Source: Coffea arabica
Lineage: Eukaryota; Streptophyta; Magnoliopsida; Gentianales; Rubiaceae
Direction: 5' to 3'
Assembly: GCF_036785885.1 (NCBI RefSeq)
Contig: NC_092329.1
Location: 2,728,001-2,792,000, forward strand
Length of the DNA stretch: 64,000 nt
Each line of letters starts with the position of its first letter. Within the stretch, counting starts at the first letter, position 1. The notes beneath the pieces are model-generated. The model was not told the origin of the DNA and did not search any database. It saw nothing but the letters and a program-made list of their open reading frames with translations. Below, in pieces: positions 4,196 through 61,036 of this stretch. A program made the position numbers and the translations under genes.

Positions 4196-8148
<3,953 letters not shown>

Positions 8149-33789: not shown

Positions 33790-33965
33790 GTTACAATTGG
33801 AAAAGAATAATGTGAGGATTTGAGAGTTAAACAAAGATTTCACGGTCACTTAACTAATCCCTCTATCAGTTTAAGTTGATCTTGGATCTTGTATTTGTCT
33901 TGGTGCCCTAATCCTACTCATATTTAGGGGTTAATTGGCCCATTCAGCCGTCATTTTGTCAAAAA

Positions 33966-33973
33966 CCGGGAAA
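33966..33973 (-). promoter_or_regulatory. Candidate E2F-binding site (copy 1; repeated in every unit)
   Basis: CCGGGAAA on the plus strand reads TTTCCCGG on the minus strand, matching the plant E2F consensus TTTSSCGS. It lies about 235 bp before the E2F ATG and 27 bp before a TATA-like element. The same octamer recurs at 39315, 44664, 50013 and 55362. Autoregulation is an inference; an octamer match alone is weak. Confidence 0.5.
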
Positions 33974-33999
33974 AGCCCAAGGAGTTCAAAGGGAGGGAG

Positions 34000-34007
34000 T
34001 TTAAATA
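34000..34007 (+). promoter_or_regulatory. TATA-like element of the E2F gene (copy 1; repeated in every unit)
   Basis: TTTAAATA about 200 bp upstream of the ATG, followed by a CT/CA-rich probable leader with ACTC repeats (about 34068-34090). It is the best TATA-like word in the roughly 420 bp upstream of the ATG that each unit carries. It lies next to the G/A site that varies between copies (33993 in copy 1). Confidence 0.45.
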
Positions 34008-34206
34008 TGACGCGCACCGCCAACAGGCTAAGACTTCCCCCACCTGGCATTCGGTAGCCATCCACGCACTCACTCACTGACTCACTCACCTATTTTTCCG
34101 CTCGTTTTCCCTAAACCAACAAGATCTTTCAAAACTCCCCCTCTTCGGTCTCGTCTTCAGACTCTCCCATTCTCTTTGGGCTTTTCCCCTGGAATTCCTC
34201 CTCCTC

Positions 34207-37200
34207 ATGTCGACCTCTGGTGATGGTAGAGGTAGAGGTAGAGAGAGACACATTGACATTGATTTGAACGTTAGTTTAAACAGCAGTTTCGGCAACTTAT
34301 CCCTCGCAGCTTCTGGTGTTCCTCCCCCTCCTCGTTTGGAGCCACAACATCGTTTCTCGGTTCCCGTGGTCCCGTCCAGAGTCTGTGAACGGCTCGACCC
34401 TTTTGCCTCTATACATTCTCCTCCTGCTGCTGCTGATCCCTCTGCTATTATCAATTACTGCATAGCTCCCAATTTTCTAGATATTCAGCCTAAGGACTCC
34501 TTCACAAGTCGGAATTCACCTTCACTTCTCGGTCTTCCGGTATATTTCTGCTTCTTGACTTTGGTGGGTTTTGTTTCTGATTCCCCTGGTTGAGCTTCCA
34601 GTTGAATTGGTTTTCTTTGTTTTTTTTTTTTTTTTTTGCCTTTTATGGTACGCAAATGTATGACGGCCTTGACGGCTTAGTATCTTTGAAGTGTGTGATC
34701 AAGCAAAGAAAATTTTTTTTAAATGTTGTTCCGTTCTGGATTTTGATTATTCAGTAATTTTTTTATGTTTGAGATTTATGTAATTGTGGGTTCAAAGAAA
34801 ATTCGGTGATCCTTCTCTTCTTTGATTTCTCTCTTTTACTTTTTTTTTCTGGAGGTTTAATCATTAATTTGCGCTTTCACATCATGCTTGAGGTTCTGAT
34901 GTACCATGATAAATGTAACACGAATGTCGAGGAATTAAGAAGAACCTTTCACTATTAAATTCTCACGTCAGTTTTTGTTTGTTGGCGTGTTTTTGTGTGT
35001 GTGTGTAAAACATGATAACATGATAAGCAAGCGCGATAAGCTTCCTACATCTTTGGATAGCTGCCAGCTTGCTGTTCTTTATAATTATTTTGGCGTCAAA
35101 AAGGTTGAATTTGTCACCATTAACCTCTATTATCCGCTGGCAAAAACATATCATACTTGCTTTCTCCTGGTTGGACAAGATTTCAGTTCTAGAAGTAAAA
35201 TTAGTGTTGAAGTATTGGACATTGGTAAAGTACCCTAATATTAGTGATTACCTTCAGCATCTGTATAACTTTCGGTTAGCGAGTTTGTGGTCTCGAGATG
35301 CTATATGAGAATCTTATTGTGGATTTAAGTTTCACGACTTCAGATAAAATGGTTGTGTTATTGCATGCCTTGGAGCAATGGTTAGTAGACATCTAGTTCT
35401 ATAATCTGCAACTTTTGTTGCATGAAATTGTAATTTCTGCTTTAGCTAGTTCATGCTTGTAACTCTACTTCATCAGTGTATTTATTTCGGATAACATGTT
35501 GCAATAATTTATTAGCATATCTATAGATATTTGAGCTCCTGAACCAGCAAATTACTAGTCAATAATTGCATTGTAGATTGCCAAAACATTTAATAATGTC
35601 AGCAATTAATTTGTATTCCATGAGCATATTAATTACAATGCGTTTCCATTTTTGCGAAGGATACGAATGAGCATGGCATCTTTGAAGCTAATAAAGGCAC
35701 AAGTAAAACTAGCTCGGTTCATGACATTACTCAAGCTGTAAATGCCGCTTCACTTAAGCTGCCAGTATCTCTCCTTGAAGCTAAGCAATGCAGCAAAGCA
35801 AGAGGCTCAAATCACGTGAAACCAGGAACGTTGGAACCAAATGCAGGTTAATGGCATATCAGTCGGATTAGACCTTATACAGTTAACCTTACTTTTACTG
35901 TCGTTAATAGCTTGTTGATTCTATTCTTACAGAGGTTCTTGACAATGTGGGTGTAGTAGGTAGCTGCCGATATGACAGCTCTCTAGGTGAGGCAGATTTC
36001 AGAATTTTTAGATGTTAAAAGCCAATTTAATAACATTCGTGCATGGGAGGCTTGATGCATTATTTTTCTTTTATGCCAAGCATTTGTACTAAAAGCTCCG
36101 GAAGTCATGTCTTTGTTGTCTGGCAGGCTTGTTGACAAAGAAGTTCATTAAATTGATACGGGAAGCTGAGGATGGATGCCTTGATCTCAATAGAGCTGCA
36201 GATCTGTTGGAGGTATTGTAGTTTATAGAAGATTACTTGCAAAATATCTTTTCTTCTCCACCCTTAGTAGACAGGATTTTGAAGTAAGGAGTTTTTATTC
36301 TTTTACCACTATTTTTGTTTCACAGCATGCCAAATGCATGTAATATTTATTTATTTATTATTTATCTCAGATGGTTGCTTTCTATCTACAGGTACAGAAA
36401 AGGCGAATATATGATATTACAAATGTCCTTGAAGGAGTAGGATTAATTGAAAAGACTACAAAGAGTCACATACGTTGGAAGTAATGTTGCTAACCTTTGT
36501 TAGTTCCATTTTAATGCCTTTATCGACTTATGATACTAGCATTTTTATATCAGGGGATATGAGATGTTTGGACCGGAAGAGTTGAATAATCAAGCAAGCA
36601 TTCTGAAGGTGATCTGCTGACAATGTTCCTTTTTATGGACATGCATAAATAAATGCTATATGCAACTTGTGTTCTGATTATCATTATGCCCTTGTTAATT
36701 TGTTCATTTTGTTGCACAAGATTAAGTCAAAATACTTGGCTCATTGGACAACTATCTTTCTTCTCATATTGAAATGGGCAAAGCTTAGGATAAACCATCC
36801 TTCTTGAGAAAGTACTCCAATAAGGAACTTGTGAGGTACTATATAGCTTCTGCTACTCTAATGCCTTCGTTGCAAGCTGACGCATAGTCTATTACTGTCT
36901 ACTTCCTGTAGCTAAAAATGGATTTTGCATTACGCACCCCTCCCTTGCCCACTTGAAAGGGAGAAACAAATGATTAGGAACTAGGAGTAATGCATTTTGA
37001 AGCCGTTCTCAAAATTTCGACCATCTAACTGAAGTGGTGCCAAAAGCGAAAAAACGTGTCAATCCCTATGTGATTGTGTAAAAGCAGTAGATTTAACCAA
37101 TAGCTTGCTAAAACTGTAACCAACTGCAAGAATTTTTTGTATGGAAATGAGAAACATGTTGACTATTAAAAAAGTTCAAAACTATTGTCATTATCATGTG

Positions 37201-38557
37201 AATGTGGTAGAAATTTGTTTAACTGAATCATATTTGTTTTCCCCCCTTTATTGGTCCCCTCCTTTTTTTTACTTTTTCTTTCAAAATCCCTTTCCTTTCT
37301 AAAAAATCAACCTAAAGAAATCGTTTGGAAGTTTTTTTTTTTTACCAGAAAACTTGTGGTGAGGCTTTAACTGCAATAACCTTTTGTTTTCCATGACAGG
37401 CTGAAATTGAACGTTTATTTGCTGAAGATTGCAGGCTTGACGATTGCATAAGGTTTGATAATCATGATATGGAAGAATGCCTCTTGTAAATTTCCTAGGA
37501 TTAAATGTTTGGCTTGGATCTTATCCTGCAGGAAAATGGATGAGAAGATGAATGCCCTAGTGCATGCTGGAACTTCTCAAAGGTAAATAATGTCTTCCTA
37601 CGTTTTATTTGTTTACTGGATGCATAACTTATATCACAGTGTTCATCTGCTTGGACTGATTCAGGACCCTTTATTTGACTGAGGAAGATATCATGAGCCA
37701 GCCATGTTTCAGGGTTAGTTAAATTTGTTTCTCTTTGCATTTATATCTTTTTCCCTTTATGTTTGAGATGTTTATGCTGTATGTTTTCTGCAGAATAAAA
37801 CTGTTATCGCTGTAAAAGCTCCACATGCTAGTACTCTTGAAGTTCCTGATCCTGATGAAGTGAGTCTTCTGTACTGACTTAACCGAGAGGTGCCCTTTAA
37901 AGATTTGGATTCCTTGGCCTCTCATAGTGCTGATTGGAATTTTTTGGCATCTGAACAGGATATCGGATTCTCAGAAAGGCAGTACAAACTTATTCTTCGA
38001 AGCACTACTGGACCTATTGATTTGTATCTCTTGAGGTATCTTTTTGCTCAGAACAAATAAGCTACCCTGAGAATATCTAGAGACACCATTCAGATTCAAC
38101 TTCCTTTTCTTCACATTTTAAATTCAGAAGCATGCATGCATGCATGTATTCCAGCTTCTGATGGCTTTGATAATCATTATGACCGTAGCAATCATGGAGG
38201 ACATCATGAAGATGTGAAGGTCAAGCGCAGAAAATTATTGGATTCATCAGTTGTGAATGGTTGCAGACAAGGGGCGGACGACGCGTATTATTCAGATGCT
38301 TCTGGTTTGCAGAGCTCTGATGTATCTGGCATTAATAAAATAATCCCATCGGATGGGGCTGTAAGTTTTCCCAGCCAAACCGACTTACCTTGCAGGGAAT
38401 GAGAACAAAAGGGAATAAGCTACAGATATTCAGAAGAAGTTTTACCACCCTCTAATAAATACCTTGCTTGTGTGACCTGCAGGTTAATGATGACTATTGG
38501 TTGCGATCAGATTACGCGGTCACTGCTACAGATCTGTGGGGTACAGAATGTTCTTAG
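34207..38557 (+). CDS. E2FC: E2F transcription factor (E2FC-like), array copy 1
   Basis: Cell-cycle transcription factor that pairs with DP to bind TTTSSCGS sites; Arabidopsis E2FC mainly represses and promotes endoreduplication. Exons: 34207-34539, 35660-35846, 35933-35986, 36127-36212, 36392-36480, 36554-36608, 37400-37452, 37532-37582, 37665-37713, 37794-37859, 37959-38035, then 38128-38360 and 38483-38557. The first eleven join in frame to 366 codons. DNA-binding domain about 183-251: [24 protein letters not shown], and [12 protein letters not shown] at 224-235. Dimerisation and marked-box region about 251-366, with [15 protein letters not shown] and [12 protein letters not shown]. Exon 13 encodes the conserved end [20 protein letters not shown]. 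With the simplest acceptors exon 12 enters a frame that stops at 38159-38161 (product about 377 aa); the downstream frame needed for exon 13 is open. E2FC rather than E2FA/B rests mainly on remembered synteny. Confidence 0.9.
38131..38147 (+). repeat. GCAT microsatellite at the start of E2F exon 12 (copy 1; repeated in every unit)
   Basis: CATGCATGCATGCATGT follows the acceptor TTCAGAAG, about four GCAT units in all. A change of one 4-bp unit would switch the reading frame of the rest of the exon. All five copies show the same length (also at 43480, 48829, 54178 and 59527). Confidence 0.9.
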
Positions 38558-39555
38558 CAGGCAAATCGTTATCCATCTATTGCAGAAGTTTAGGATCAAA
38601 ATCAACGAGGCTCTCCATTTCACCTGTACATGCATTTATTTATATAGCATTAAAGGAATAGGTTAGTGTTTAGATCATTGATTATTATAGTTTTCCTTGA
38701 AGGACTTGTACAATCCACATCCCTTCCTTCAAGTGTAAAATTGACATGCAGTAAATGCTAATGAATTGTAGGTTCATTAACTATTTTCTTCATCTTTTTT
38801 TTTGCCCCCTTTCTGCCGTTTTTGATACAATTGCTATGCATCACATGGTCGATTCACTTCCAAGGCTGATGTTGCTATCTAACTCAAACGGGCTTTGTAG
38901 TGGCATTAAAATGGTTTGCCTTCTTCACCATTCCGACCTGCATTTCTGCTTTTCCTCCTCAATAGTATCATGTTTACGTTGTCTTCTTAATTGCCTCAAC
39001 ACCGAACATGTTTTCAACATACTTTATGAACAGCTTAGTACGAGATACTAAGTTGAGGTAAACAAAAATGTACCATATGTTTTCTACAGCGAAGAAAGAC
39101 TGGGCCATGCTGGGAGTTTTGACACAAATAAAACGGGAGTTACAATTGGAAAAGAATAATGTGAGGATTTGAGAGTTAAACAAAGATTTCACGGTCACCT
39201 AACTAATCCCTCTATCAGTTTAAGTTGATCTTGGATCTTGTATTTGTCTTGGTGCCCTAATCCTACTCATATTTAGGGGTTAATTGGCCCATTCAGCCGT
39301 CATTTTGTCAAAAACCGGGAAAAGCCCAAGGAGTTCAAAGGGAGGGAGTTTAAATATGACGCGCACCGCCAACAGGCTAAGACTTCCCCCACCTGGCATT
39401 CGGTAGCCATCCACGCACTCACTCACTGACTCACTCACCTATTTTTCCGCTCGTTTTCCCTAAACCAACAAGATCTTTCAAAACTCCCCCTCTTCGGTCT
39501 CGTCTTCAGACTCTCCCATTCTCTTTGGGCTTTTCCCCTGGAATTCCTCCTCCTC

Positions 39556-42500
39556 ATGTCGACCTCTGGTGATGGTAGAGGTAGAGGTAGAGAGAGACAC
39601 ATTGACATTGATTTGAACGTTAGTTTAAACAGCAGTTTCGGCAACTTATCCCTCGCAGCTTCTGGTGTTCCTCCCCCTCCTCGTTTGGAGCCACAACATC
39701 GTTTCTCGGTTCCCGTGGTCCCGTCCAGAGTCTGTGAACGGCTCGACCCTTTTGCCTCTATACATTCTCCTCCTGCTGCTGCTGATCCCTCTGCTATTAT
39801 CAATTACTGCATAGCTCCCAATTTTCTAGATATTCAGCCTAAGGACTCCTTCACAAGTCGGAATTCACCTTCACTTCTCGGTCTTCCGGTATATTTCTGC
39901 TTCTTGACTTTGGTGGGTTTTGTTTCTGATTCCCCTGGTTGAGCTTCCAGTTGAATTGGTTTTCTTTGTTTTTTTTTTTTTTTTTTGCCTTTTATGGTAC
40001 GCAAATGTATGACGGCCTTGACGGCTTAGTATCTTTGAAGTGTGTGATCAAGCAAAGAAAATTTTTTTTAAATGTTGTTCCGTTCTGGATTTTGATTATT
40101 CAGTAATTTTTTTATGTTTGAGATTTATGTAATTGTGGGTTCAAAGAAAATTCGGTGATCCTTCTCTTCTTTGATTTCTCTCTTTTACTTTTTTTTTCTG
40201 GAGGTTTAATCATTAATTTGCGCTTTCACATCATGCTTGAGGTTCTGATGTACCATGATAAATGTAACACGAATGTCGAGGAATTAAGAAGAACCTTTCA
40301 CTATTAAATTCTCACGTCAGTTTTTGTTTGTTGGCGTGTTTTTGTGTGTGTGTGTAAAACATGATAACATGATAAGCAAGCGCGATAAGCTTCCTACATC
40401 TTTGGATAGCTGCCAGCTTGCTGTTCTTTATAATTATTTTGGCGTCAAAAAGGTTGAATTTGTCACCATTAACCTCTATTATCCGCTGGCAAAAACATAT
40501 CATACTTGCTTTCTCCTGGTTGGACAAGATTTCAGTTCTAGAAGTAAAATTAGTGTTGAAGTATTGGACATTGGTAAAGTACCCTAATATTAGTGATTAC
40601 CTTCAGCATCTGTATAACTTTCGGTTAGCGAGTTTGTGGTCTCGAGATGCTATATGAGAATCTTATTGTGGATTTAAGTTTCACGACTTCAGATAAAATG
40701 GTTGTGTTATTGCATGCCTTGGAGCAATGGTTAGTAGACATCTAGTTCTATAATCTGCAACTTTTGTTGCATGAAATTGTAATTTCTGCTTTAGCTAGTT
40801 CATGCTTGTAACTCTACTTCATCAGTGTATTTATTTCGGATAACATGTTGCAATAATTTATTAGCATATCTATAGATATTTGAGCTCCTGAACCAGCAAA
40901 TTACTAGTCAATAATTGCATTGTAGATTGCCAAAACATTTAATAATGTCAGCAATTAATTTGTATTCCATGAGCATATTAATTACAATGCGTTTCCATTT
41001 TTGCGAAGGATACGAATGAGCATGGCATCTTTGAAGCTAATAAAGGCACAAGTAAAACTAGCTCGGTTCATGACATTACTCAAGCTGTAAATGCCGCTTC
41101 ACTTAAGCTGCCAGTATCTCTCCTTGAAGCTAAGCAATGCAGCAAAGCAAGAGGCTCAAATCACGTGAAACCAGGAACGTTGGAACCAAATGCAGGTTAA
41201 TGGCATATCAGTCGGATTAGACCTTATACAGTTAACCTTACTTTTACTGTCGTTAATAGCTTGTTGATTCTATTCTTACAGAGGTTCTTGACAATGTGGG
41301 TGTAGTAGGTAGCTGCCGATATGACAGCTCTCTAGGTGAGGCAGATTTCAGAATTTTTAGATGTTAAAAGCCAATTTAATAACATTCGTGCATGGGAGGC
41401 TTGATGCATTATTTTTCTTTTATGCCAAGCATTTGTACTAAAAGCTCCGGAAGTCATGTCTTTGTTGTCTGGCAGGCTTGTTGACAAAGAAGTTCATTAA
41501 ATTGATACGGGAAGCTGAGGATGGATGCCTTGATCTCAATAGAGCTGCAGATCTGTTGGAGGTATTGTAGTTTATAGAAGATTACTTGCAAAATATCTTT
41601 TCTTCTCCACCCTTAGTAGACAGGATTTTGAAGTAAGGAGTTTTTATTCTTTTACCACTATTTTTGTTTCACAGCATGCCAAATGCATGTAATATTTATT
41701 TATTTATTATTTATCTCAGATGGTTGCTTTCTATCTACAGGTACAGAAAAGGCGAATATATGATATTACAAATGTCCTTGAAGGAGTAGGATTAATTGAA
41801 AAGACTACAAAGAGTCACATACGTTGGAAGTAATGTTGCTAACCTTTGTTAGTTCCATTTTAATGCCTTTATCGACTTATGATACTAGCATTTTTATATC
41901 AGGGGATATGAGATGTTTGGACCGGAAGAGTTGAATAATCAAGCAAGCATTCTGAAGGTGATCTGCTGACAATGTTCCTTTTTATGGACATGCATAAATA
42001 AATGCTATATGCAACTTGTGTTCTGATTATCATTATGCCCTTGTTAATTTGTTCATTTTGTTGCACAAGATTAAGTCAAAATACTTGGCTCATTGGACAA
42101 CTATCTTTCTTCTCATATTGAAATGGGCAAAGCTTAGGATAAACCATCCTTCTTGAGAAAGTACTCCAATAAGGAACTTGTGAGGTACTATATAGCTTCT
42201 GCTACTCTAATGCCTTCGTTGCAAGCTGACGCATAGTCTATTACTGTCTACTTCCTGTAGCTAAAAATGGATTTTGCATTACGCACCCCTCCCTTGCCCA
42301 CTTGAAAGGGAGAAACAAATGATTAGGAACTAGGAGTAATGCATTTTGAAGCCGTTCTCAAAATTTCGACCATCTAACTGAAGTGGTGCCAAAAGCGAAA
42401 AAACGTGTCAATCCCTATGTGATTGTGTAAAAGCAGTAGATTTAACCAATAGCTTGCTAAAACTGTAACCAACTGCAAGAATTTTTTGTATGGAAATGAG

Positions 42501-43906
42501 AAACATGTTGACTATTAAAAAAGTTCAAAACTATTGTCATTATCATGTGAATGTGGTAGAAATTTGTTTAACTGAATCATATTTGTTTTCCCCCCTTTAT
42601 TGGTCCCCTCCTTTTTTTTACTTTTTCTTTCAAAATCCCTTTCCTTTCTAAAAAATCAACCTAAAGAAATCGTTTGGAAGTTTTTTTTTTTTACCAGAAA
42701 ACTTGTGGTGAGGCTTTAACTGCAATAACCTTTTGTTTTCCATGACAGGCTGAAATTGAACGTTTATTTGCTGAAGATTGCAGGCTTGACGATTGCATAA
42801 GGTTTGATAATCATGATATGGAAGAATGCCTCTTGTAAATTTCCTAGGATTAAATGTTTGGCTTGGATCTTATCCTGCAGGAAAATGGATGAGAAGATGA
42901 ATGCCCTAGTGCATGCTGGAACTTCTCAAAGGTAAATAATGTCTTCCTACGTTTTATTTGTTTACTGGATGCATAACTTATATCACAGTGTTCATCTGCT
43001 TGGACTGATTCAGGACCCTTTATTTGACTGAGGAAGATATCATGAGCCAGCCATGTTTCAGGGTTAGTTAAATTTGTTTCTCTTTGCATTTATATCTTTT
43101 TCCCTTTATGTTTGAGATGTTTATGCTGTATGTTTTCTGCAGAATAAAACTGTTATCGCTGTAAAAGCTCCACATGCTAGTACTCTTGAAGTTCCTGATC
43201 CTGATGAAGTGAGTCTTCTGTACTGACTTAACCGAGAGGTGCCCTTTAAAGATTTGGATTCCTTGGCCTCTCATAGTGCTGATTGGAATTTTTTGGCATC
43301 TGAACAGGATATCGGATTCTCAGAAAGGCAGTACAAACTTATTCTTCGAAGCACTACTGGACCTATTGATTTGTATCTCTTGAGGTATCTTTTTGCTCAG
43401 AACAAATAAGCTACCCTGAGAATATCTAGAGACACCATTCAGATTCAACTTCCTTTTCTTCACATTTTAAATTCAGAAGCATGCATGCATGCATGTATTC
43501 CAGCTTCTGATGGCTTTGATAATCATTATGACCGTAGCAATCATGGAGGACATCATGAAGATGTGAAGGTCAAGCGCAGAAAATTATTGGATTCATCAGT
43601 TGTGAATGGTTGCAGACAAGGGGCGGACGACGCGTATTATTCAGATGCTTCTGGTTTGCAGAGCTCTGATGTATCTGGCATTAATAAAATAATCCCATCG
43701 GATGGGGCTGTAAGTTTTCCCAGCCAAACCGACTTACCTTGCAGGGAATGAGAACAAAAGGGAATAAGCTACAGATATTCAGAAGAAGTTTTACCACCCT
43801 CTAATAAATACCTTGCTTGTGTGACCTGCAGGTTAATGATGACTATTGGTTGCGATCAGATTACGCGGTCACTGCTACAGATCTGTGGGGTACAGAATGT
43901 TCTTAG
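39556..43906 (+). CDS. E2FC: E2F transcription factor (E2FC-like), array copy 2
   Basis: Same exon structure as copy 1 shifted by 5,349 bp, with the same splice signals and the same frame change at the GCAT repeat before exon 12 (43477 onward). I saw no coding difference from copy 1. The upstream position that is T in copy 1 (33850) is C here (39199). Only about 420 bp of unit-borne sequence precedes the ATG, and upstream of that lies the 3' flank of copy 1, so any distal enhancer of copy 1 is absent unless it acts over distance. Confidence 0.88.
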
Positions 43907-44904
43907 CAGGCAAATCGTTATCCATCTATTGCAGAAGTTTAGGATCAAAATCAACGAGGCTCTCCATTTCACCTGTACATGCATTTATTTATATAGCATT
44001 AAAGGAATAGGTTAGTGTTTAGATCATTGATTATTATAGTTTTCCTTGAAGGACTTGTACAATCCACATCCCTTCCTTCAAGTGTAAAATTGACATGCAG
44101 TAAATGCTAATGAATTGTAGGTTCATTAACTATTTTCTTCATCTTTTTTTTTGCCCCCTTTCTGCCGTTTTTGATACAATTGCTATGCATCACATGGTCG
44201 ATTCACTTCCAAGGCTGATGTTGCTATCTAACTCAAACGGGCTTTGTAGTGGCATTAAAATGGTTTGCCTTCTTCACCATTCCGACCTGCATTTCTGCTT
44301 TTCCTCCTCAATAGTATCATGTTTACGTTGTCTTCTTAATTGCCTCAACACCGAACATGTTTTCAACATACTTTATGAACAGCTTAGTACGAGATACTAA
44401 GTTGAGGTAAACAAAAATGTACCATATGTTTTCTACAGCGAAGAAAGACTGGGCCATGCTGGGAGTTTTGACACAAATAAAACGGGAGTTACAATTGGAA
44501 AAGAATAATGTGAGGATTTGAGAGTTAAACAAAGATTTCACGGTCACCTAACTAATCCCTCTATCAGTTTAAGTTGATCTTGGATCTTGTATTTGTCTTG
44601 GTGCCCTAATCCTACTCATATTTAGGGGTTAATTGGCCCATTCAGCCGTCATTTTGTCAAAAACCGGGAAAAGCCCAAGGAGTTCAAAGGAAGGGAGTTT
44701 AAATATGACGCGCACCGCCAACAGGCTAAGACTTCCCCCACCTGGCATTCGGTAGCCATCCACGCACTCACTCACTGACTCACTCACCTATTTTTCCGCT
44801 CGTTTTCCCTAAACCAACAAGATCTTTCAAAACTCCCCCTCTTCGGTCTCGTCTTCAGACTCTCCCATTCTCTTTGGGCTTTTCCCCTGGAATTCCTCCT
44901 CCTC

Positions 44905-47900
44905 ATGTCGACCTCTGGTGATGGTAGAGGTAGAGGTAGAGAGAGACACATTGACATTGATTTGAACGTTAGTTTAAACAGCAGTTTCGGCAACTTATCC
45001 CTCGCAGCTTCTGGTGTTCCTCCCCCTCCTCGTTTGGAGCCACAACATCGTTTCTCGGTTCCCGTGGTCCCGTCCAGAGTCTGTGAACGGCTCGACCCTT
45101 TTGCCTCTATACATTCTCCTCCTGCTGCTGCTGATCCCTCTGCTATTATCAATTACTGCATAGCTCCCAATTTTCTAGATATTCAGCCTAAGGACTCCTT
45201 CACAAGTCGGAATTCACCTTCACTTCTCGGTCTTCCGGTATATTTCTGCTTCTTGACTTTGGTGGGTTTTGTTTCTGATTCCCCTGGTTGAGCTTCCAGT
45301 TGAATTGGTTTTCTTTGTTTTTTTTTTTTTTTTTTGCCTTTTATGGTACGCAAATGTATGACGGCCTTGACGGCTTAGTATCTTTGAAGTGTGTGATCAA
45401 GCAAAGAAAATTTTTTTTAAATGTTGTTCCGTTCTGGATTTTGATTATTCAGTAATTTTTTTATGTTTGAGATTTATGTAATTGTGGGTTCAAAGAAAAT
45501 TCGGTGATCCTTCTCTTCTTTGATTTCTCTCTTTTACTTTTTTTTTCTGGAGGTTTAATCATTAATTTGCGCTTTCACATCATGCTTGAGGTTCTGATGT
45601 ACCATGATAAATGTAACACGAATGTCGAGGAATTAAGAAGAACCTTTCACTATTAAATTCTCACGTCAGTTTTTGTTTGTTGGCGTGTTTTTGTGTGTGT
45701 GTGTAAAACATGATAACATGATAAGCAAGCGCGATAAGCTTCCTACATCTTTGGATAGCTGCCAGCTTGCTGTTCTTTATAATTATTTTGGCGTCAAAAA
45801 GGTTGAATTTGTCACCATTAACCTCTATTATCCGCTGGCAAAAACATATCATACTTGCTTTCTCCTGGTTGGACAAGATTTCAGTTCTAGAAGTAAAATT
45901 AGTGTTGAAGTATTGGACATTGGTAAAGTACCCTAATATTAGTGATTACCTTCAGCATCTGTATAACTTTCGGTTAGCGAGTTTGTGGTCTCGAGATGCT
46001 ATATGAGAATCTTATTGTGGATTTAAGTTTCACGACTTCAGATAAAATGGTTGTGTTATTGCATGCCTTGGAGCAATGGTTAGTAGACATCTAGTTCTAT
46101 AATCTGCAACTTTTGTTGCATGAAATTGTAATTTCTGCTTTAGCTAGTTCATGCTTGTAACTCTACTTCATCAGTGTATTTATTTCGGATAACATGTTGC
46201 AATAATTTATTAGCATATCTATAGATATTTGAGCTCCTGAACCAGCAAATTACTAGTCAATAATTGCATTGTAGATTGCCAAAACATTTAATAATGTCAG
46301 CAATTAATTTGTATTCCATGAGCATATTAATTACAATGCGTTTCCATTTTTGCGAAGGATACGAATGAGCATGGCATCTTTGAAGCTAATAAAGGCACAA
46401 GTAAAACTAGCTCGGTTCATGACATTACTCAAGCTGTAAATGCCGCTTCACTTAAGCTGCCAGTATCTCTCCTTGAAGCTAAGCAATGCAGCAAAGCAAG
46501 AGGCTCAAATCACGTGAAACCAGGAACGTTGGAACCAAATGCAGGTTAATGGCATATCAGTCGGATTAGACCTTATACAGTTAACCTTACTTTTACTGTC
46601 GTTAATAGCTTGTTGATTCTATTCTTACAGAGGTTCTTGACAATGTGGGTGTAGTAGGTAGCTGCCGATATGACAGCTCTCTAGGTGAGGCAGATTTCAG
46701 AATTTTTAGATGTTAAAAGCCAATTTAATAACATTCGTGCATGGGAGGCTTGATGCATTATTTTTCTTTTATGCCAAGCATTTGTACTAAAAGCTCCGGA
46801 AGTCATGTCTTTGTTGTCTGGCAGGCTTGTTGACAAAGAAGTTCATTAAATTGATACGGGAAGCTGAGGATGGATGCCTTGATCTCAATAGAGCTGCAGA
46901 TCTGTTGGAGGTATTGTAGTTTATAGAAGATTACTTGCAAAATATCTTTTCTTCTCCACCCTTAGTAGACAGGATTTTGAAGTAAGGAGTTTTTATTCTT
47001 TTACCACTATTTTTGTTTCACAGCATGCCAAATGCATGTAATATTTATTTATTTATTATTTATCTCAGATGGTTGCTTTCTATCTACAGGTACAGAAAAG
47101 GCGAATATATGATATTACAAATGTCCTTGAAGGAGTAGGATTAATTGAAAAGACTACAAAGAGTCACATACGTTGGAAGTAATGTTGCTAACCTTTGTTA
47201 GTTCCATTTTAATGCCTTTATCGACTTATGATACTAGCATTTTTATATCAGGGGATATGAGATGTTTGGACCGGAAGAGTTGAATAATCAAGCAAGCATT
47301 CTGAAGGTGATCTGCTGACAATGTTCCTTTTTATGGACATGCATAAATAAATGCTATATGCAACTTGTGTTCTGATTATCATTATGCCCTTGTTAATTTG
47401 TTCATTTTGTTGCACAAGATTAAGTCAAAATACTTGGCTCATTGGACAACTATCTTTCTTCTCATATTGAAATGGGCAAAGCTTAGGATAAACCATCCTT
47501 CTTGAGAAAGTACTCCAATAAGGAACTTGTGAGGTACTATATAGCTTCTGCTACTCTAATGCCTTCGTTGCAAGCTGACGCATAGTCTATTACTGTCTAC
47601 TTCCTGTAGCTAAAAATGGATTTTGCATTACGCACCCCTCCCTTGCCCACTTGAAAGGGAGAAACAAATGATTAGGAACTAGGAGTAATGCATTTTGAAG
47701 CCGTTCTCAAAATTTCGACCATCTAACTGAAGTGGTGCCAAAAGCGAAAAAACGTGTCAATCCCTATGTGATTGTGTAAAAGCAGTAGATTTAACCAATA
47801 GCTTGCTAAAACTGTAACCAACTGCAAGAATTTTTTGTATGGAAATGAGAAACATGTTGACTATTAAAAAAGTTCAAAACTATTGTCATTATCATGTGAA

Positions 47901-49255: not shown

Positions 49256-50253
49256 CAGGCAAATCGTTATCCATCTATTGCAGAAGTTTAGGATCAAAAT
49301 CAACGAGGCTCTCCATTTCACCTGTACATGCATTTATTTATATAGCATTAAAGGAATAGGTTAGTGTTTAGATCATTGATTATTATAGTTTTCCTTGAAG
49401 GACTTGTACAATCCACATCCCTTCCTTCAAGTGTAAAATTGACATGCAGTAAATGCTAATGAATTGTAGGTTCATTAACTATTTTCTTCATCTTTTTTTT
49501 TGCCCCCTTTCTGCCGTTTTTGATACAATTGCTATGCATCACATGGTCGATTCACTTCCAAGGCTGATGTTGCTATCTAACTCAAACGGGCTTTGTAGTG
49601 GCATTAAAATGGTTTGCCTTCTTCACCATTCCGACCTGCATTTCTGCTTTTCCTCCTCAATAGTATCATGTTTACGTTGTCTTCTTAATTGCCTCAACAC
49701 CGAACATGTTTTCAACATACTTTATGAACAGCTTAGTACGAGATACTAAGTTGAGGTAAACAAAAATGTACCATATGTTTTCTACAGCGAAGAAAGACTG
49801 GGCCATGCTGGGAGTTTTGACACAAATAAAACGGGAGTTACAATTGGAAAAGAATAATGTGAGGATTTGAGAGTTAAACAAAGATTTCACGGTCACCTAA
49901 CTAATCCCTCTATCAGTTTAAGTTGATCTTGGATCTTGTATTTGTCTTGGTGCCCTAATCCTACTCATATTTAGGGGTTAATTGGCCCATTCAGCCGTCA
50001 TTTTGTCAAAAACCGGGAAAAGCCCAAGGAGTTCAAAGGGAGGGAGTTTAAATATGACGCGCACCGCCAACAGGCTAAGACTTCCCCCACCTGGCATTCG
50101 GTAGCCATCCACGCACTCACTCACTGACTCACTCACCTATTTTTCCGCTCGTTTTCCCTAAACCAACAAGATCTTTCAAAACTCCCCCTCTTCGGTCTCG
50201 TCTTCAGACTCTCCCATTCTCTTTGGGCTTTTCCCCTGGAATTCCTCCTCCTC

Positions 50254-53200
50254 ATGTCGACCTCTGGTGATGGTAGAGGTAGAGGTAGAGAGAGACACAT
50301 TGACATTGATTTGAACGTTAGTTTAAACAGCAGTTTCGGCAACTTATCCCTCGCAGCTTCTGGTGTTCCTCCCCCTCCTCGTTTGGAGCCACAACATCGT
50401 TTCTCGGTTCCCGTGGTCCCGTCCAGAGTCTGTGAACGGCTCGACCCTTTTGCCTCTATACATTCTCCTCCTGCTGCTGCTGATCCCTCTGCTATTATCA
50501 ATTACTGCATAGCTCCCAATTTTCTAGATATTCAGCCTAAGGACTCCTTCACAAGTCGGAATTCACCTTCACTTCTCGGTCTTCCGGTATATTTCTGCTT
50601 CTTGACTTTGGTGGGTTTTGTTTCTGATTCCCCTGGTTGAGCTTCCAGTTGAATTGGTTTTCTTTGTTTTTTTTTTTTTTTTTTGCCTTTTATGGTACGC
50701 AAATGTATGACGGCCTTGACGGCTTAGTATCTTTGAAGTGTGTGATCAAGCAAAGAAAATTTTTTTTAAATGTTGTTCCGTTCTGGATTTTGATTATTCA
50801 GTAATTTTTTTATGTTTGAGATTTATGTAATTGTGGGTTCAAAGAAAATTCGGTGATCCTTCTCTTCTTTGATTTCTCTCTTTTACTTTTTTTTTCTGGA
50901 GGTTTAATCATTAATTTGCGCTTTCACATCATGCTTGAGGTTCTGATGTACCATGATAAATGTAACACGAATGTCGAGGAATTAAGAAGAACCTTTCACT
51001 ATTAAATTCTCACGTCAGTTTTTGTTTGTTGGCGTGTTTTTGTGTGTGTGTGTAAAACATGATAACATGATAAGCAAGCGCGATAAGCTTCCTACATCTT
51101 TGGATAGCTGCCAGCTTGCTGTTCTTTATAATTATTTTGGCGTCAAAAAGGTTGAATTTGTCACCATTAACCTCTATTATCCGCTGGCAAAAACATATCA
51201 TACTTGCTTTCTCCTGGTTGGACAAGATTTCAGTTCTAGAAGTAAAATTAGTGTTGAAGTATTGGACATTGGTAAAGTACCCTAATATTAGTGATTACCT
51301 TCAGCATCTGTATAACTTTCGGTTAGCGAGTTTGTGGTCTCGAGATGCTATATGAGAATCTTATTGTGGATTTAAGTTTCACGACTTCAGATAAAATGGT
51401 TGTGTTATTGCATGCCTTGGAGCAATGGTTAGTAGACATCTAGTTCTATAATCTGCAACTTTTGTTGCATGAAATTGTAATTTCTGCTTTAGCTAGTTCA
51501 TGCTTGTAACTCTACTTCATCAGTGTATTTATTTCGGATAACATGTTGCAATAATTTATTAGCATATCTATAGATATTTGAGCTCCTGAACCAGCAAATT
51601 ACTAGTCAATAATTGCATTGTAGATTGCCAAAACATTTAATAATGTCAGCAATTAATTTGTATTCCATGAGCATATTAATTACAATGCGTTTCCATTTTT
51701 GCGAAGGATACGAATGAGCATGGCATCTTTGAAGCTAATAAAGGCACAAGTAAAACTAGCTCGGTTCATGACATTACTCAAGCTGTAAATGCCGCTTCAC
51801 TTAAGCTGCCAGTATCTCTCCTTGAAGCTAAGCAATGCAGCAAAGCAAGAGGCTCAAATCACGTGAAACCAGGAACGTTGGAACCAAATGCAGGTTAATG
51901 GCATATCAGTCGGATTAGACCTTATACAGTTAACCTTACTTTTACTGTCGTTAATAGCTTGTTGATTCTATTCTTACAGAGGTTCTTGACAATGTGGGTG
52001 TAGTAGGTAGCTGCCGATATGACAGCTCTCTAGGTGAGGCAGATTTCAGAATTTTTAGATGTTAAAAGCCAATTTAATAACATTCGTGCATGGGAGGCTT
52101 GATGCATTATTTTTCTTTTATGCCAAGCATTTGTACTAAAAGCTCCGGAAGTCATGTCTTTGTTGTCTGGCAGGCTTGTTGACAAAGAAGTTCATTAAAT
52201 TGATACGGGAAGCTGAGGATGGATGCCTTGATCTCAATAGAGCTGCAGATCTGTTGGAGGTATTGTAGTTTATAGAAGATTACTTGCAAAATATCTTTTC
52301 TTCTCCACCCTTAGTAGACAGGATTTTGAAGTAAGGAGTTTTTATTCTTTTACCACTATTTTTGTTTCACAGCATGCCAAATGCATGTAATATTTATTTA
52401 TTTATTATTTATCTCAGATGGTTGCTTTCTATCTACAGGTACAGAAAAGGCGAATATATGATATTACAAATGTCCTTGAAGGAGTAGGATTAATTGAAAA
52501 GACTACAAAGAGTCACATACGTTGGAAGTAATGTTGCTAACCTTTGTTAGTTCCATTTTAATGCCTTTATCGACTTATGATACTAGCATTTTTATATCAG
52601 GGGATATGAGATGTTTGGACCGGAAGAGTTGAATAATCAAGCAAGCATTCTGAAGGTGATCTGCTGACAATGTTCCTTTTTATGGACATGCATAAATAAA
52701 TGCTATATGCAACTTGTGTTCTGATTATCATTATGCCCTTGTTAATTTGTTCATTTTGTTGCACAAGATTAAGTCAAAATACTTGGCTCATTGGACAACT
52801 ATCTTTCTTCTCATATTGAAATGGGCAAAGCTTAGGATAAACCATCCTTCTTGAGAAAGTACTCCAATAAGGAACTTGTGAGGTACTATATAGCTTCTGC
52901 TACTCTAATGCCTTCGTTGCAAGCTGACGCATAGTCTATTACTGTCTACTTCCTGTAGCTAAAAATGGATTTTGCATTACGCACCCCTCCCTTGCCCACT
53001 TGAAAGGGAGAAACAAATGATTAGGAACTAGGAGTAATGCATTTTGAAGCCGTTCTCAAAATTTCGACCATCTAACTGAAGTGGTGCCAAAAGCGAAAAA
53101 ACGTGTCAATCCCTATGTGATTGTGTAAAAGCAGTAGATTTAACCAATAGCTTGCTAAAACTGTAACCAACTGCAAGAATTTTTTGTATGGAAATGAGAA

Positions 53201-54604
53201 ACATGTTGACTATTAAAAAAGTTCAAAACTATTGTCATTATCATGTGAATGTGGTAGAAATTTGTTTAACTGAATCATATTTGTTTTCCCCCCTTTATTG
53301 GTCCCCTCCTTTTTTTTACTTTTTCTTTCAAAATCCCTTTCCTTTCTAAAAAATCAACCTAAAGAAATCGTTTGGAAGTTTTTTTTTTTTACCAGAAAAC
53401 TTGTGGTGAGGCTTTAACTGCAATAACCTTTTGTTTTCCATGACAGGCTGAAATTGAACGTTTATTTGCTGAAGATTGCAGGCTTGACGATTGCATAAGG
53501 TTTGATAATCATGATATGGAAGAATGCCTCTTGTAAATTTCCTAGGATTAAATGTTTGGCTTGGATCTTATCCTGCAGGAAAATGGATGAGAAGATGAAT
53601 GCCCTAGTGCATGCTGGAACTTCTCAAAGGTAAATAATGTCTTCCTACGTTTTATTTGTTTACTGGATGCATAACTTATATCACAGTGTTCATCTGCTTG
53701 GACTGATTCAGGACCCTTTATTTGACTGAGGAAGATATCATGAGCCAGCCATGTTTCAGGGTTAGTTAAATTTGTTTCTCTTTGCATTTATATCTTTTTC
53801 CCTTTATGTTTGAGATGTTTATGCTGTATGTTTTCTGCAGAATAAAACTGTTATCGCTGTAAAAGCTCCACATGCTAGTACTCTTGAAGTTCCTGATCCT
53901 GATGAAGTGAGTCTTCTGTACTGACTTAACCGAGAGGTGCCCTTTAAAGATTTGGATTCCTTGGCCTCTCATAGTGCTGATTGGAATTTTTTGGCATCTG
54001 AACAGGATATCGGATTCTCAGAAAGGCAGTACAAACTTATTCTTCGAAGCACTACTGGACCTATTGATTTGTATCTCTTGAGGTATCTTTTTGCTCAGAA
54101 CAAATAAGCTACCCTGAGAATATCTAGAGACACCATTCAGATTCAACTTCCTTTTCTTCACATTTTAAATTCAGAAGCATGCATGCATGCATGTATTCCA
54201 GCTTCTGATGGCTTTGATAATCATTATGACCGTAGCAATCATGGAGGACATCATGAAGATGTGAAGGTCAAGCGCAGAAAATTATTGGATTCATCAGTTG
54301 TGAATGGTTGCAGACAAGGGGCGGACGACGCGTATTATTCAGATGCTTCTGGTTTGCAGAGCTCTGATGTATCTGGCATTAATAAAATAATCCCATCGGA
54401 TGGGGCTGTAAGTTTTCCCAGCCAAACCGACTTACCTTGCAGGGAATGAGAACAAAAGGGAATAAGCTACAGATATTCAGAAGAAGTTTTACCACCCTCT
54501 AATAAATACCTTGCTTGTGTGACCTGCAGGTTAATGATGACTATTGGTTGCGATCAGATTACGCGGTCACTGCTACAGATCTGTGGGGTACAGAATGTTC
54601 TTAG
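50254..54604 (+). CDS. E2FC: E2F transcription factor (E2FC-like), array copy 4
   Basis: Same structure as copy 1 shifted by 16,047 bp. At the variable sites it matches copy 2 (C at 55188-type leader position 49897, G at 50040). No coding difference noticed; same exon 12 frame change. Confidence 0.87.
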
Positions 54605-55602
54605 CAGGCAAATCGTTATCCATCTATTGCAGAAGTTTAGGATCAAAATCAACGAGGCTCTCCATTTCACCTGTACATGCATTTATTTATATAGCATTAA
54701 AGGAATAGGTTAGTGTTTAGATCATTGATTATTATAGTTTTCCTTGAAGGACTTGTACAATCCACATCCCTTCCTTCAAGTGTAAAATTGACATGCAGTA
54801 AATGCTAATGAATTGTAGGTTCATTAACTATTTTCTTCATCTTTTTTTTTGCCCCCTTTCTGCCGTTTTTGATACAATTGCTATGCATCACATGGTCGAT
54901 TCACTTCCAAGGCTGATGTTGCTATCTAACTCAAACGGGCTTTGTAGTGGCATTAAAATGGTTTGCCTTCTTCACCATTCCGACCTGCATTTCTGCTTTT
55001 CCTCCTCAATAGTATCATGTTTACGTTGTCTTCTTAATTGCCTCAACACCGAACATGTTTTCAACATACTTTATGAACAGCTTAGTACGAGATACTAAGT
55101 TGAGGTAAACAAAAATGTACCATATGTTTTCTACAGCGAAGAAAGACTGGGCCATGCTGGGAGTTTTGACACAAATAAAACGGGAGTTACAATTGGAAAA
55201 GAATAATGTGAGGATTTGAGAGTTAAACAAAGATTTCACGGTCACCTAACTAATCCCTCTATCAGTTTAAGTTGATCTTGGATCTTGTATTTGTCTTGGT
55301 GCCCTAATCCTACTCATATTTAGGGGTTAATTGGCCCATTCAGCCGTCATTTTGTCAAAAACCGGGAAAAGCCCAAGGAGTTCAAAGGAAGGGAGTTTAA
55401 ATATGACGCGCACCGCCAACAGGCTAAGACTTCCCCCACCTGGCATTCGGTAGCCATCCACGCACTCACTCACTGACTCACTCACCTATTTTTCCGCTCG
55501 TTTTCCCTAAACCAACAAGATCTTTCAAAACTCCCCCTCTTCGGTCTCGTCTTCAGACTCTCCCATTCTCTTTGGGCTTTTCCCCTGGAATTCCTCCTCC
55601 TC

Positions 55603-58600
55603 ATGTCGACCTCTGGTGATGGTAGAGGTAGAGGTAGAGAGAGACACATTGACATTGATTTGAACGTTAGTTTAAACAGCAGTTTCGGCAACTTATCCCT
55701 CGCAGCTTCTGGTGTTCCTCCCCCTCCTCGTTTGGAGCCACAACATCGTTTCTCGGTTCCCGTGGTCCCGTCCAGAGTCTGTGAACGGCTCGACCCTTTT
55801 GCCTCTATACATTCTCCTCCTGCTGCTGCTGATCCCTCTGCTATTATCAATTACTGCATAGCTCCCAATTTTCTAGATATTCAGCCTAAGGACTCCTTCA
55901 CAAGTCGGAATTCACCTTCACTTCTCGGTCTTCCGGTATATTTTTGCTTCTTGACTTTGGTGGGTTTTGTTTCTGATTCCCCTGGTTGAGCTTCCAGTTG
56001 AATTGGTTTTCTTTGTTTTTTTTTTTTTTTTTTGCCTTTTATGGTACGCAAATGTATGACGGCCTTGACGGCTTAGTATCTTTGAAGTGTGTGATCAAGC
56101 AAAGAAAATTTTTTTTAAATGTTGTTCCGTTCTGGATTTTGATTATTCAGTAATTTTTTTATGTTTGAGATTTATGTAATTGTGGGTTCAAAGAAAATTC
56201 GGTGATCCTTCTCTTCTTTGATTTCTCTCTTTTACTTTTTTTTTCTGGAGGTTTAATCATTAATTTGCGCTTTCACATCATGCTTGAGGTTCTGATGTAC
56301 CATGATAAATGTAACACGAATGTCGAGGAATTAAGAAGAACCTTTCACTATTAAATTCTCACGTCAGTTTTTGTTTGTTGGCGTGTTTTTGTGTGTGTGT
56401 GTAAAACATGATAACATGATAAGCAAGCGCGATAAGCTTCCTACATCTTTGGATAGCTGCCAGCTTGCTGTTCTTTATAATTATTTTGGCGTCAAAAAGG
56501 TTGAATTTGTCACCATTAACCTCTATTATCCGCTGGCAAAAACATATCATACTTGCTTTCTCCTGGTTGGACAAGATTTCAGTTCTAGAAGTAAAATTAG
56601 TGTTGAAGTATTGGACATTGGTAAAGTACCCTAATATTAGTGATTACCTTCAGCATCTGTATAACTTTCGGTTAGCGAGTTTGTGGTCTCGAGATGCTAT
56701 ATGAGAATCTTATTGTGGATTTAAGTTTCACGACTTCAGATAAAATGGTTGTGTTATTGCATGCCTTGGAGCAATGGTTAGTAGACATCTAGTTCTATAA
56801 TCTGCAACTTTTGTTGCATGAAATTGTAATTTCTGCTTTAGCTAGTTCATGCTTGTAACTCTACTTCATCAGTGTATTTATTTCGGATAACATGTTGCAA
56901 TAATTTATTAGCATATCTATAGATATTTGAGCTCCTGAACCAGCAAATTACTAGTCAATAATTGCATTGTAGATTGCCAAAACATTTAATAATGTCAGCA
57001 ATTAATTTGTATTCCATGAGCATATTAATTACAATGCGTTTCCATTTTTGCGAAGGATACGAATGAGCATGGCATCTTTGAAGCTAATAAAGGCACAAGT
57101 AAAACTAGCTCGGTTCATGACATTACTCAAGCTGTAAATGCCGCTTCACTTAAGCTGCCAGTATCTCTCCTTGAAGCTAAGCAATGCAGCAAAGCAAGAG
57201 GCTCAAATCACGTGAAACCAGGAACGTTGGAACCAAATGCAGGTTAATGGCATATCAGTCGGATTAGACCTTATACAGTTAACCTTACTTTTACTGTCGT
57301 TAATAGCTTGTTGATTCTATTCTTACAGAGGTTCTTGACAATGTGGGTGTAGTAGGTAGCTGCCGATATGACAGCTCTCTAGGTGAGGCAGATTTCAGAA
57401 TTTTTAGATGTTAAAAGCCAATTTAATAACATTCGTGCATGGGAGGCTTGATGCATTATTTTTCTTTTATGCCAAGCATTTGTACTAAAAGCTCCGGAAG
57501 TCATGTCTTTGTTGTCTGGCAGGCTTGTTGACAAAGAAGTTCATTAAATTGATACGGGAAGCTGAGGATGGATGCCTTGATCTCAATAGAGCTGCAGATC
57601 TGTTGGAGGTATTGTAGTTTATAGAAGATTACTTGCAAAATATCTTTTCTTCTCCACCCTTAGTAGACAGGATTTTGAAGTAAGGAGTTTTTATTCTTTT
57701 ACCACTATTTTTGTTTCACAGCATGCCAAATGCATGTAATATTTATTTATTTATTATTTATCTCAGATGGTTGCTTTCTATCTACAGGTACAGAAAAGGC
57801 GAATATATGATATTACAAATGTCCTTGAAGGAGTAGGATTAATTGAAAAGACTACAAAGAGTCACATACGTTGGAAGTAATGTTGCTAACCTTTGTTAGT
57901 TCCATTTTAATGCCTTTATCGACTTATGATACTAGCATTTTTATATCAGGGGATATGAGATGTTTGGACCGGAAGAGTTGAATAATCAAGCAAGCATTCT
58001 GAAGGTGATCTGCTGACAATGTTCCTTTTTATGGACATGCATAAATAAATGCTATATGCAACTTGTGTTCTGATTATCATTATGCCCTTGTTAATTTGTT
58101 CATTTTGTTGCACAAGATTAAGTCAAAATACTTGGCTCATTGGACAACTATCTTTCTTCTCATATTGAAATGGGCAAAGCTTAGGATAAACCATCCTTCT
58201 TGAGAAAGTACTCCAATAAGGAACTTGTGAGGTACTATATAGCTTCTGCTACTCTAATGCCTTCGTTGCAAGCTGACGCATAGTCTATTACTGTCTACTT
58301 CCTGTAGCTAAAAATGGATTTTGCATTACGCACCCCTCCCTTGCCCACTTGAAAGGGAGAAACAAATGATTAGGAACTAGGAGTAATGCATTTTGAAGCC
58401 GTTCTCAAAATTTCGACCATCTAACTGAAGTGGTGCCAAAAGCGAAAAAACGTGTCAATCCCTATGTGATTGTGTAAAAGCAGTAGATTTAACCAATAGC
58501 TTGCTAAAACTGTAACCAACTGCAAGAATTTTTTGTATGGAAATGAGAAACATGTTGACTATTAAAAAAGTTCAAAACTATTGTCATTATCATGTGAATG

Positions 58601-59953
58601 TGGTAGAAATTTGTTTAACTGAATCATATTTGTTTTCCCCCCTTTATTGGTCCCCTCCTTTTTTTTACTTTTTCTTTCAAAATCCCTTTCCTTTCTAAAA
58701 AATCAACCTAAAGAAATCGTTTGGAAGTTTTTTTTTTTTACCAGAAAACTTGTGGTGAGGCTTTAACTGCAATAACCTTTTGTTTTCCATGACAGGCTGA
58801 AATTGAACGTTTATTTGCTGAAGATTGCAGGCTTGACGATTGCATAAGGTTTGATAATCATGATATGGAAGAATGCCTCTTGTAAATTTCCTAGGATTAA
58901 ATGTTTGGCTTGGATCTTATCCTGCAGGAAAATGGATGAGAAGATGAATGCCCTAGTGCATGCTGGAACTTCTCAAAGGTAAATAATGTCTTCCTACGTT
59001 TTATTTGTTTACTGGATGCATAACTTATATCACAGTGTTCATCTGCTTGGACTGATTCAGGACCCTTTATTTGACTGAGGAAGATATCATGAGCCAGCCA
59101 TGTTTCAGGGTTAGTTAAATTTGTTTCTCTTTGCATTTATATCTTTTTCCCTTTATGTTTGAGATGTTTATGCTGTATGTTTTCTGCAGAATAAAACTGT
59201 TATCGCTGTAAAAGCTCCACATGCTAGTACTCTTGAAGTTCCTGATCCTGATGAAGTGAGTCTTCTGTACTGACTTAACCGAGAGGTGCCCTTTAAAGAT
59301 TTGGATTCCTTGGCCTCTCATAGTGCTGATTGGAATTTTTTGGCATCTGAACAGGATATCGGATTCTCAGAAAGGCAGTACAAACTTATTCTTCGAAGCA
59401 CTACTGGACCTATTGATTTGTATCTCTTGAGGTATCTTTTTGCTCAGAACAAATAAGCTACCCTGAGAATATCTAGAGACACCATTCAGATTCAACTTCC
59501 TTTTCTTCACATTTTAAATTCAGAAGCATGCATGCATGCATGTATTCCAGCTTCTGATGGCTTTGATAATCATTATGACCGTAGCAATCATGGAGGACAT
59601 CATGAAGATGTGAAGGTCAAGCGCAGAAAATTATTGGATTCATCAGTTGTGAATGGTTGCAGACAAGGGGCGGACGACGCGTATTATTCAGATGCTTCTG
59701 GTTTGCAGAGCTCTGATGTATCTGGCATTAATAAAATAATCCCATCGGATGGGGCTGTAAGTTTTCCCAGCCAAACCGACTTACCTTGCAGGGAATGAGA
59801 ACAAAAGGGAATAAGCTACAGATATTCAGAAGAAGTTTTACCACCCTCTAATAAATACCTTGCTTGTGTGACCTGCAGGTTAATGATGACTATTGGTTGC
59901 GATCAGATTACGCGGTCACTGCTACAGATCTGTGGGGTACAGAATGTTCTTAG
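55603..59953 (+). CDS. E2FC: E2F transcription factor (E2FC-like), array copy 5
   Basis: Same structure as copy 1 shifted by 21,396 bp. It shares the A upstream of the TATA-like element with copy 3 (55389) and has a private T at 55944 within intron 1, five bases inside the donor GTATAT. The coding exons look the same as in the other copies. Its 3' flank runs into single-copy DNA at 60533, so it alone keeps the original downstream context, whereas copy 1 alone keeps the original upstream context. Confidence 0.88.
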
Positions 59954-60532
59954 CAGGCAAATCGTTATCCATCTATTGCAGAAGTTTAGGATCAAAATCA
60001 ACGAGGCTCTCCATTTCACCTGTACATGCATTTATTTATATAGCATTAAAGGAATAGGTTAGTGTTTAGATCATTGATTATTATAGTTTTCCTTGAAGGA
60101 CTTGTACAATCCACATCCCTTCCTTCAAGTGTAAAATTGACATGCAGTAAATGCTAATGAATTGTAGGTTCATTAACTATTTTCTTCATCTTTTTTTTTG
60201 CCCCCTTTCTGCCGTTTTTGATACAATTGCTATGCATCACATGGTCGATTCACTTCCAAGGCTGATGTTGCTATCTAACTCAAACGGGCTTTGTAGTGGC
60301 ATTAAAATGGTTTGCCTTCTTCACCATTCCGACCTGCATTTCTGCTTTTCCTCCTCAATAGTATCATGTTTACGTTGTCTTCTTAATTGCCTCAACACCG
60401 AACATGTTTTCAACATACTTTATGAACAGCTTAGTACGAGATACTAAGTTGAGGTAAACAAAAATGTACCATATGTTTTCTACAGCGAAGAAAGACTGGG
60501 CCATGCTGGGAGTTTTGACACAAATAAAACGG

Positions 60533-61036
60533 CTCGTTCATATACATTGACAAAGCTTACCAGTGAGCGACAATTGTTTCAACTTCCAAATCCATCGCCA
60601 TTTTGTGGGTCCCACATCTCGAGTAACAATCAATGTAAATAGCGTCATCATCACCGTTAATTCTACAAACTTCGATCGAATCCGGACCGTCAACGGCCCC
60701 AAATCGTTGCAGCTGTTGGGCCCAGGTCCAACCGTATTAGTACCTGATCGTGGAGCGGTGCTCGGCCCCAACTTTTACTTTAGCGCGAGTTACCCAAAGC
60801 ACAACAACGAGAGATATCTAAATCGTTGTTTCCTCGGCCTTTAATCTAAATCAATTATAGCTTTCACGGCCTACCCACTCAAAATCCATCAACTTAAAAA
60901 TCTTGAACATTTATAACCAACGAGTCGTCCAACAACAACAACGATGTACATGCACCATTTATCAGCTCTTAACCTATGCCTCCTAGTTACTCACAATTCA
61001 CAAATTAGGAAGGATAATGGAGGACCCAAGCTCTAC
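60533..61036. other. Spacer between the E2F array and HVA22
   Basis: Single-copy sequence between convergent genes. A 93-codon open frame at 60563-60844 has no recognisable homology. 60900-61036 is probably HVA22 3' UTR. Confidence 0.5.

Follow-up and report, generated by a model that had tools for sequence, protein, structure and literature searches.

A putative, very young tandem amplification of a complete E2FC-like gene in the Coffea arabica assembly

The Coffea arabica stretch analysed in this study, hereafter the window (64,000 nucleotides), contains an E2F gene five times in succession in almost identical form. This raises the question of whether the array is a very recent amplification or an assembly expansion, which an earlier sequence-only reading had posed as the two alternatives and which is still the correct pair. 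We favour, with moderate confidence, the first of these, namely that one complete E2FC-like gene was genuinely and very recently amplified in tandem in the plant chromosome. In its favour stand the exact period, the matching filler junctions, the unique outer edges, the low divergence among units, the equal lengths of long homopolymers, the open genes with their E2F domains, the history with a two-unit step and the published cases of Kochia EPSPS and the cucumber F locus, where the same process is described.

Layout of the array, its variable sites and its junctions

Self-match and edge comparison showed that 33790-60532 is made up of a 5,349-bp unit repeated five times head to tail and free of indels. 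The self-match at a lag of 5349 spans the whole array and no stretch was obtained at lags 5348 and 5350, while the array edges were found to be 33790 and 60532 themselves. The array length of 26,743 bp is 5 x 5349 minus 2, since the filler bases described below are absent after copy 5. On the forward strand, the units occupy 33790..39138 (unit 1, 5349 bp, its last two bases GA being junction filler), 39139..44487 (unit 2), 44488..49836 (unit 3), 49837..55185 (unit 4, identical to unit 2) and 55186..60532 (unit 5, 5347 bp, without filler and continuing into the unique right flank). Shifted copies are 99.94-99.98% identical when the window is compared with itself by blastn, and agreement of this degree over 5.3 kb is not a matter of chance. 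In addition, all six homopolymers of at least 8 bases in each unit, T18 included, have equal length in the five copies.

Only three substitutions were observed among the units. At offset 61, copies 1 to 5 read T/C/C/C/C, with the T at 33850; at offset 204 they read G/G/A/G/A, with A at 44691 and 55389 (copy-1 equivalent 33993); and at offset 759 they read C/C/C/C/T, with the T at 55944 (copy-1 equivalent 34548). In the gene model all three are non-coding, the first two lying upstream of the ATG and the third in intron 1, beyond the end of exon 1 at 34539. Otherwise the copies disagree only in the two filler columns, where the bases following copy 5 already belong to the right flank. Four distinct unit types (T-G-C, C-G-C, C-A-C and C-A-T) are thus recognized, and units 3 and 5 differ solely at offset 759, filler aside, as unit 5 has none. 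The exact 5349 period of the five-unit tandem, the restriction to three variable positions and the constant homopolymer lengths had all been claimed from the sequence alone, and our lag self-match with edge comparison, column comparison of the copies and run-by-run count agree with each of them.

The left outer edge reads ...CTCAGCC followed by GTTACAATTG, and the right outer edge reads ...AAAACGG followed by CTCGTTC. Every internal junction reads AAAACGG-GA-GTTACAATTG, so that the same join occurs at all four, and the array consists of direct repeats sharing one junction, as in copy-number loci that change by unequal exchange. The 2-base filler GA lies at 39137..39138 (junction of units 1 and 2) and again at 44486-44487, 49835-49836 and 55184-55185, and is found at neither outer edge. 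A 5,347-bp segment has been joined end to start via this filler, with no homology between its edges. The filler join common to all junctions points to a single founding duplication by end joining, and the remaining copies were probably made by homologous exchange. The filler junction needs real molecules carrying the tandem join (or a circle); the presence of five copies on a single chromosome does not follow from it alone.

A templated filler of the polymerase-theta type was considered and set aside. The junction sequence GGGAGTT recurs near the unit end, yet this is compatible with chance, as matches of at least 7 bases were found within 50 bp in 13.2% of 4000 random pairs of breakpoints with fillers, and within 100 bp in 21.3% of another 4000; these were drawn from the left flank, and some of the cases are random fillers that recreate the flank. 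Likewise, no mobile element was recognized at the breakpoints from inverted-pair and self-match scans. Inverted pairs of at least 25 nt were absent within 29000-39200 and 55000-64000, and no self-match in the window joins the two outer flanks; shorter inverted pairs numbered 13 in 32800-35000 and 10 in 59900-62000, each region being scanned within itself. The sequence CAGTGGCGGATC, immediately left of the array edge, presumably resembles a transposon end. As an exact match it is unique in the window, and at up to two mismatches it occurs 3 times versus 1.4 expected, a count reached by 18 of 100 shuffles.

The E2F gene and its upstream region

Our hand-built model of the gene in copy 1 covers 34207..38557 on the forward strand and comprises 13 coding exons encoding 448 aa. 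The exons are 34207-34539, 35660-35846, 35933-35986, 36127-36212, 36392-36480, 36554-36608, 37400-37452, 37532-37582, 37665-37713, 37794-37859, 37959-38035, 38189-38360 and 38483-38557. The genes of the other copies, likewise on the forward strand, lie at 39556..43906 (copy 2, the copy 1 exons plus 5349), 44905..49255 (copy 3), 50254..54604 (copy 4) and 55603..59953 (copy 5). All 12 introns are GT-AG, the CDS of 1347 bp has a single stop, and the coding sequence is identical and open, with the same protein, in all five copies. In each unit 417 bp precede the ATG and 581 bp, including the 2 filler bases, follow the stop; with the 13 exons, this bears out the earlier claim that every unit is a complete gene including about 580 bp downstream. 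A suspicion of a pseudogene was dropped: the frame was disrupted by the acceptors initially chosen for exon 12 but is preserved by the one before 38189, and the predicted exon start at 38189 was picked for the reason that the frame stays open.

The predicted protein matches PF02319 (E2F_TDP, winged-helix) at residues 188-251 in a single stretch (92.6 bits against a cutoff of 25.7, 1.3e-26) and PF16421 (E2F_CC-MB, coiled-coil and marked-box) at residues 267-367 (93.1 bits against a cutoff of 33.9, 1.2e-26). All four matches among PDB sequences at E of 0.001 or below are named E2F (E2F-4 twice, E2F5 and E2F8); the E2F-4 chain 1cf7_A (8e-23) matches the winged-helix and the E2F5 chain 5tuv_B the dimerisation domain. 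One E2F/DP winged-helix domain with one CC-MB domain is the composition of a typical plant E2F, and these matches support placing the predicted product in the typical class. A 16-residue stretch near the C-terminus, which we take to be the RBR-binding motif, gave no profile match in the Pfam scan of the protein. The protein terminates 5 residues past TDLW, which we assume to be a marker of the C-terminal domain, and a 12-residue stretch is presumably similar to AtE2FC. From these motifs and the short C-terminus, the gene looks E2FC-like. The earlier designation as an E2FC-like E2F therefore holds for typical E2F through its domains, and its E2FC part stands on the assumed motifs and C-terminal length. 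A short C-terminus is described for AtE2FC and DcE2F4 in the available passages of PMC7994507. AtE2FC is likewise a typical E2F in what is available of that paper and of PMC6206300. Unit 1 had no megablast match among plasmids, none of 47 pattern matches of the 68-aa DNA-binding stretch among viral contigs was confirmed, and the tRNA (bacterial code) and Rfam scans of the window were empty.

The copies differ in what lies further upstream. The native upstream sequence at 32803..33789 on the forward strand, from the end of a TRM6-like gene (with a putative last exon) to the array edge, is present in copy 1 only. Copies 2-5 retain 417 bp of native upstream sequence, and the 987 bp beyond are replaced by the 3' region of the preceding copy. 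This absence of the native distal upstream sequence in copies 2-5 and the 2-base filler go beyond what the sequence-only reading had observed.

The 417 bp upstream of the ATG contain no TATAWA on either strand. Exact TTTSSCGC does not occur in the array and occurs once in the window (14932) against 3.62 expected; with at most one mismatch it occurs 109 times in the whole window against 96.6 expected. The 417-bp region upstream of each ATG contains two such near-matches, at 33966-33973 and 34094-34101 in copy 1. With site counts at chance level, the candidate E2F site proposed earlier appears weak, and autoregulation via consensus sites was rejected. A bacterial promoter scan of the window was given no weight. 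As a separate observation, a 17-nt inverted repeat (33968-33984 and 34172-34188, 94% complementary, 187 nt apart) is present in all units and encloses what is probably the promoter and 5' leader.

History of the array and competing explanations

Possible histories were enumerated for 8 ancestral states, each starting as a pair of identical copies; a site could mutate once, and block duplication was the only rearrangement allowed. With single-unit duplications only, none of the 8 ancestral states reaches the observed array; the pattern G/G/A/G/A at offset 204 cannot be produced by single-unit duplication if each site mutates once. When two units may be duplicated together, 3 of the 8 states succeed in 5 events (2 expansions and 3 mutations), on a path of 2 to 3 to 5 copies whose last step duplicates units 2-3. 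Gene conversion or repeated mutation could substitute for the two-unit step. Diversity among the units is pi = 2.6e-4. Assuming substitution rates of 7e-9 and 2e-9, this gives an age of some 19,000 to 65,000 years or generations, which is rough and, because exchange occurs within an array, dates the last common unit and not the founding event. None of the three substitutions lies beyond position 759 in the unit of 5349 bp, so that all are confined to its first 14%, with p about 0.003, or 0.006 counting either end, in a test chosen after the pattern was seen. Uniform mutation does not explain this clustering at the unit start, which counts against the favoured reading.

The amplification that we favour may have proceeded as follows. 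The first two copies would have come from repair of a DNA break by end joining, or from a replication slip leading to the same product, and homologous unequal exchange would then have enlarged the array, one step probably duplicating two units together (units 2-3 giving 4-5). Up to five coding-identical genes may yield more E2FC-like protein, which by homology is predicted to bind E2F sites with a DP partner and to recruit RBR, and the balance of division versus endoreduplication could thereby be shifted. Expression may not rise fivefold, since copies 2-5 have the 417-bp proximal region only and copy 1 the whole intergenic sequence.

A possible but rather doubtful explanation is an assembly expansion of a smaller array, for instance two haplotypes of about three units misjoined in register (1-3 plus 4-5). 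Blocks 2-3 and 4-5 differ at one base in about 10.7 kb, as alleles might, and the homopolymer lengths are constant; the equality of T18 in five copies despite the substitutions is also compatible with smoothing of the consensus during assembly or polishing. Such a misjoin still requires a real filler junction, as the join exists at neither outer edge, and it has to accommodate four distinct unit types in a window that contains no N's. The number five was counted in assembled sequence and is unproven as an exact copy number, as misjoined haplotypes of fewer units could mimic it. The variants that copies 3 and 5 have in common had been taken earlier as an argument for real copies; they do indicate that several different unit molecules exist, and five copies in cis are not proven by them, because joining haplotype 1-2-3 to 2'-3' predicts the same pattern.

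A pure artefact, in which one real unit was multiplied through junctions that are all false, would agree with the very high identity and equal homopolymers, but we regard it as very unlikely. The two junction bases are foreign to both edges, so that overlapping true reads from a single copy cannot produce the junction, barring chimeric reads; the need for real molecules and the four unit types argue against a single-copy artefact. Extrachromosomal circles beside a single chromosomal copy, circled several times by the assembler, would yield the identical filler junction and constant period, but are scarcely credible, as the assembler's walk must cross four different unit types.

Known tandem loci, dosage and the neighbourhood

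With reference to the literature, the nearest precedent is the carrot DcE2F7/DEL3 locus, where, according to the available passages of PMC7994507, an E2F-family gene is present five times in direct tandem, as in the coffee array. In carrot the gene is an atypical E2F/DEL whose copies A and E have termination codons, whereas here it is a typical E2F, identical and open in all five copies. In the cucumber F locus (CsACS1/CsACS1G), the part of PMC7072070 at hand reports a very recent tandem duplication with near-identical copies and ascribes copy-number changes to unequal crossing over. CsACS1G is native up to -410 and then has a different distal promoter, comparable with the 417 bp native in copies 2-5, although -410 is counted from the transcription start and 417 bp from the ATG. 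The cucumber unit of 30.2 kb holds more than one gene, occurs in two or three copies and has a demonstrated sex phenotype, whereas the present 5.3-kb unit holds one gene and is known from sequence. For EPSPS of Kochia scoparia, the passages of PMC6808082 give three to eight tandem copies and propose unequal crossing over as a hypothetical model; they implicate a mobile element, whereas none was recognized at the breakpoints described above.

Arabidopsis has one AtE2FC according to the accessible text of PMC12405181, against five copies in this assembly. No tandem E2FC array was found in the accessible portions of the open PMC literature on E2F, including PMC11110339 and PMC8008544, and passages on tomato and Moso bamboo report no tandem duplication of E2F/DP genes.

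In the available passages of PMC6206300, E2Fc is called a negative regulator of endoreduplication and acts on VND7 in a concentration-dependent manner. Since the literature passages conflict on the direction of E2Fc action, a dosage effect is predicted without its sign. If the five copies are real, they would form a natural dosage series of a regulator that this source describes as concentration-dependent; siblings could then be used to relate copy number to ploidy or growth, and a fresh gene amplification would have been caught early with its founding junction intact. More speculatively, and with little probability in our judgement, the locus could be a natural, unstable dosage locus for a core cell-cycle regulator. 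It would hold five intact E2FC-like genes in cis, of which four have a rebuilt distal promoter; unequal exchange would let the number of copies drift from one individual to another, and this number would govern how division, endoreduplication or secondary-wall formation are balanced. If the array is an assembly error, it would signify caution against E2F gene counts from this genome.

The neighbourhood of the array was also inspected. To the left, hexokinase exons lie on the reverse strand within 4199-8175, all four scanned stretches matching hexokinase models. Directly upstream is a TRM6/Gcd10p-like gene on the forward strand (2 of 5 stretches matched, one above the cut-off), which we take to end near 32802. 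To the right is an HVA22-like gene on the reverse strand, with 1 of 2 stretches matched at 18.3 bits, below the cut-off of 27.2. We assume that HXK3 and E2FC are close together in Arabidopsis (AT1G47840, AT1G47870); if so, the proximity of hexokinase and E2F would fit E2FC orthology. Other repeats in the window include a tandem repeat of 68 bp in 3.3 copies at 14328-14561 and diverged short repeats with an 8-bp period (TAATTAAC and CTAATTAG types), direct and inverted, at 15391-15757. At 17911-18091, a segment of about 88 bp occurs twice in direct orientation with 87.5% identity; both copies lie within an open frame, which encodes PDPIEKQVTSSII twice.
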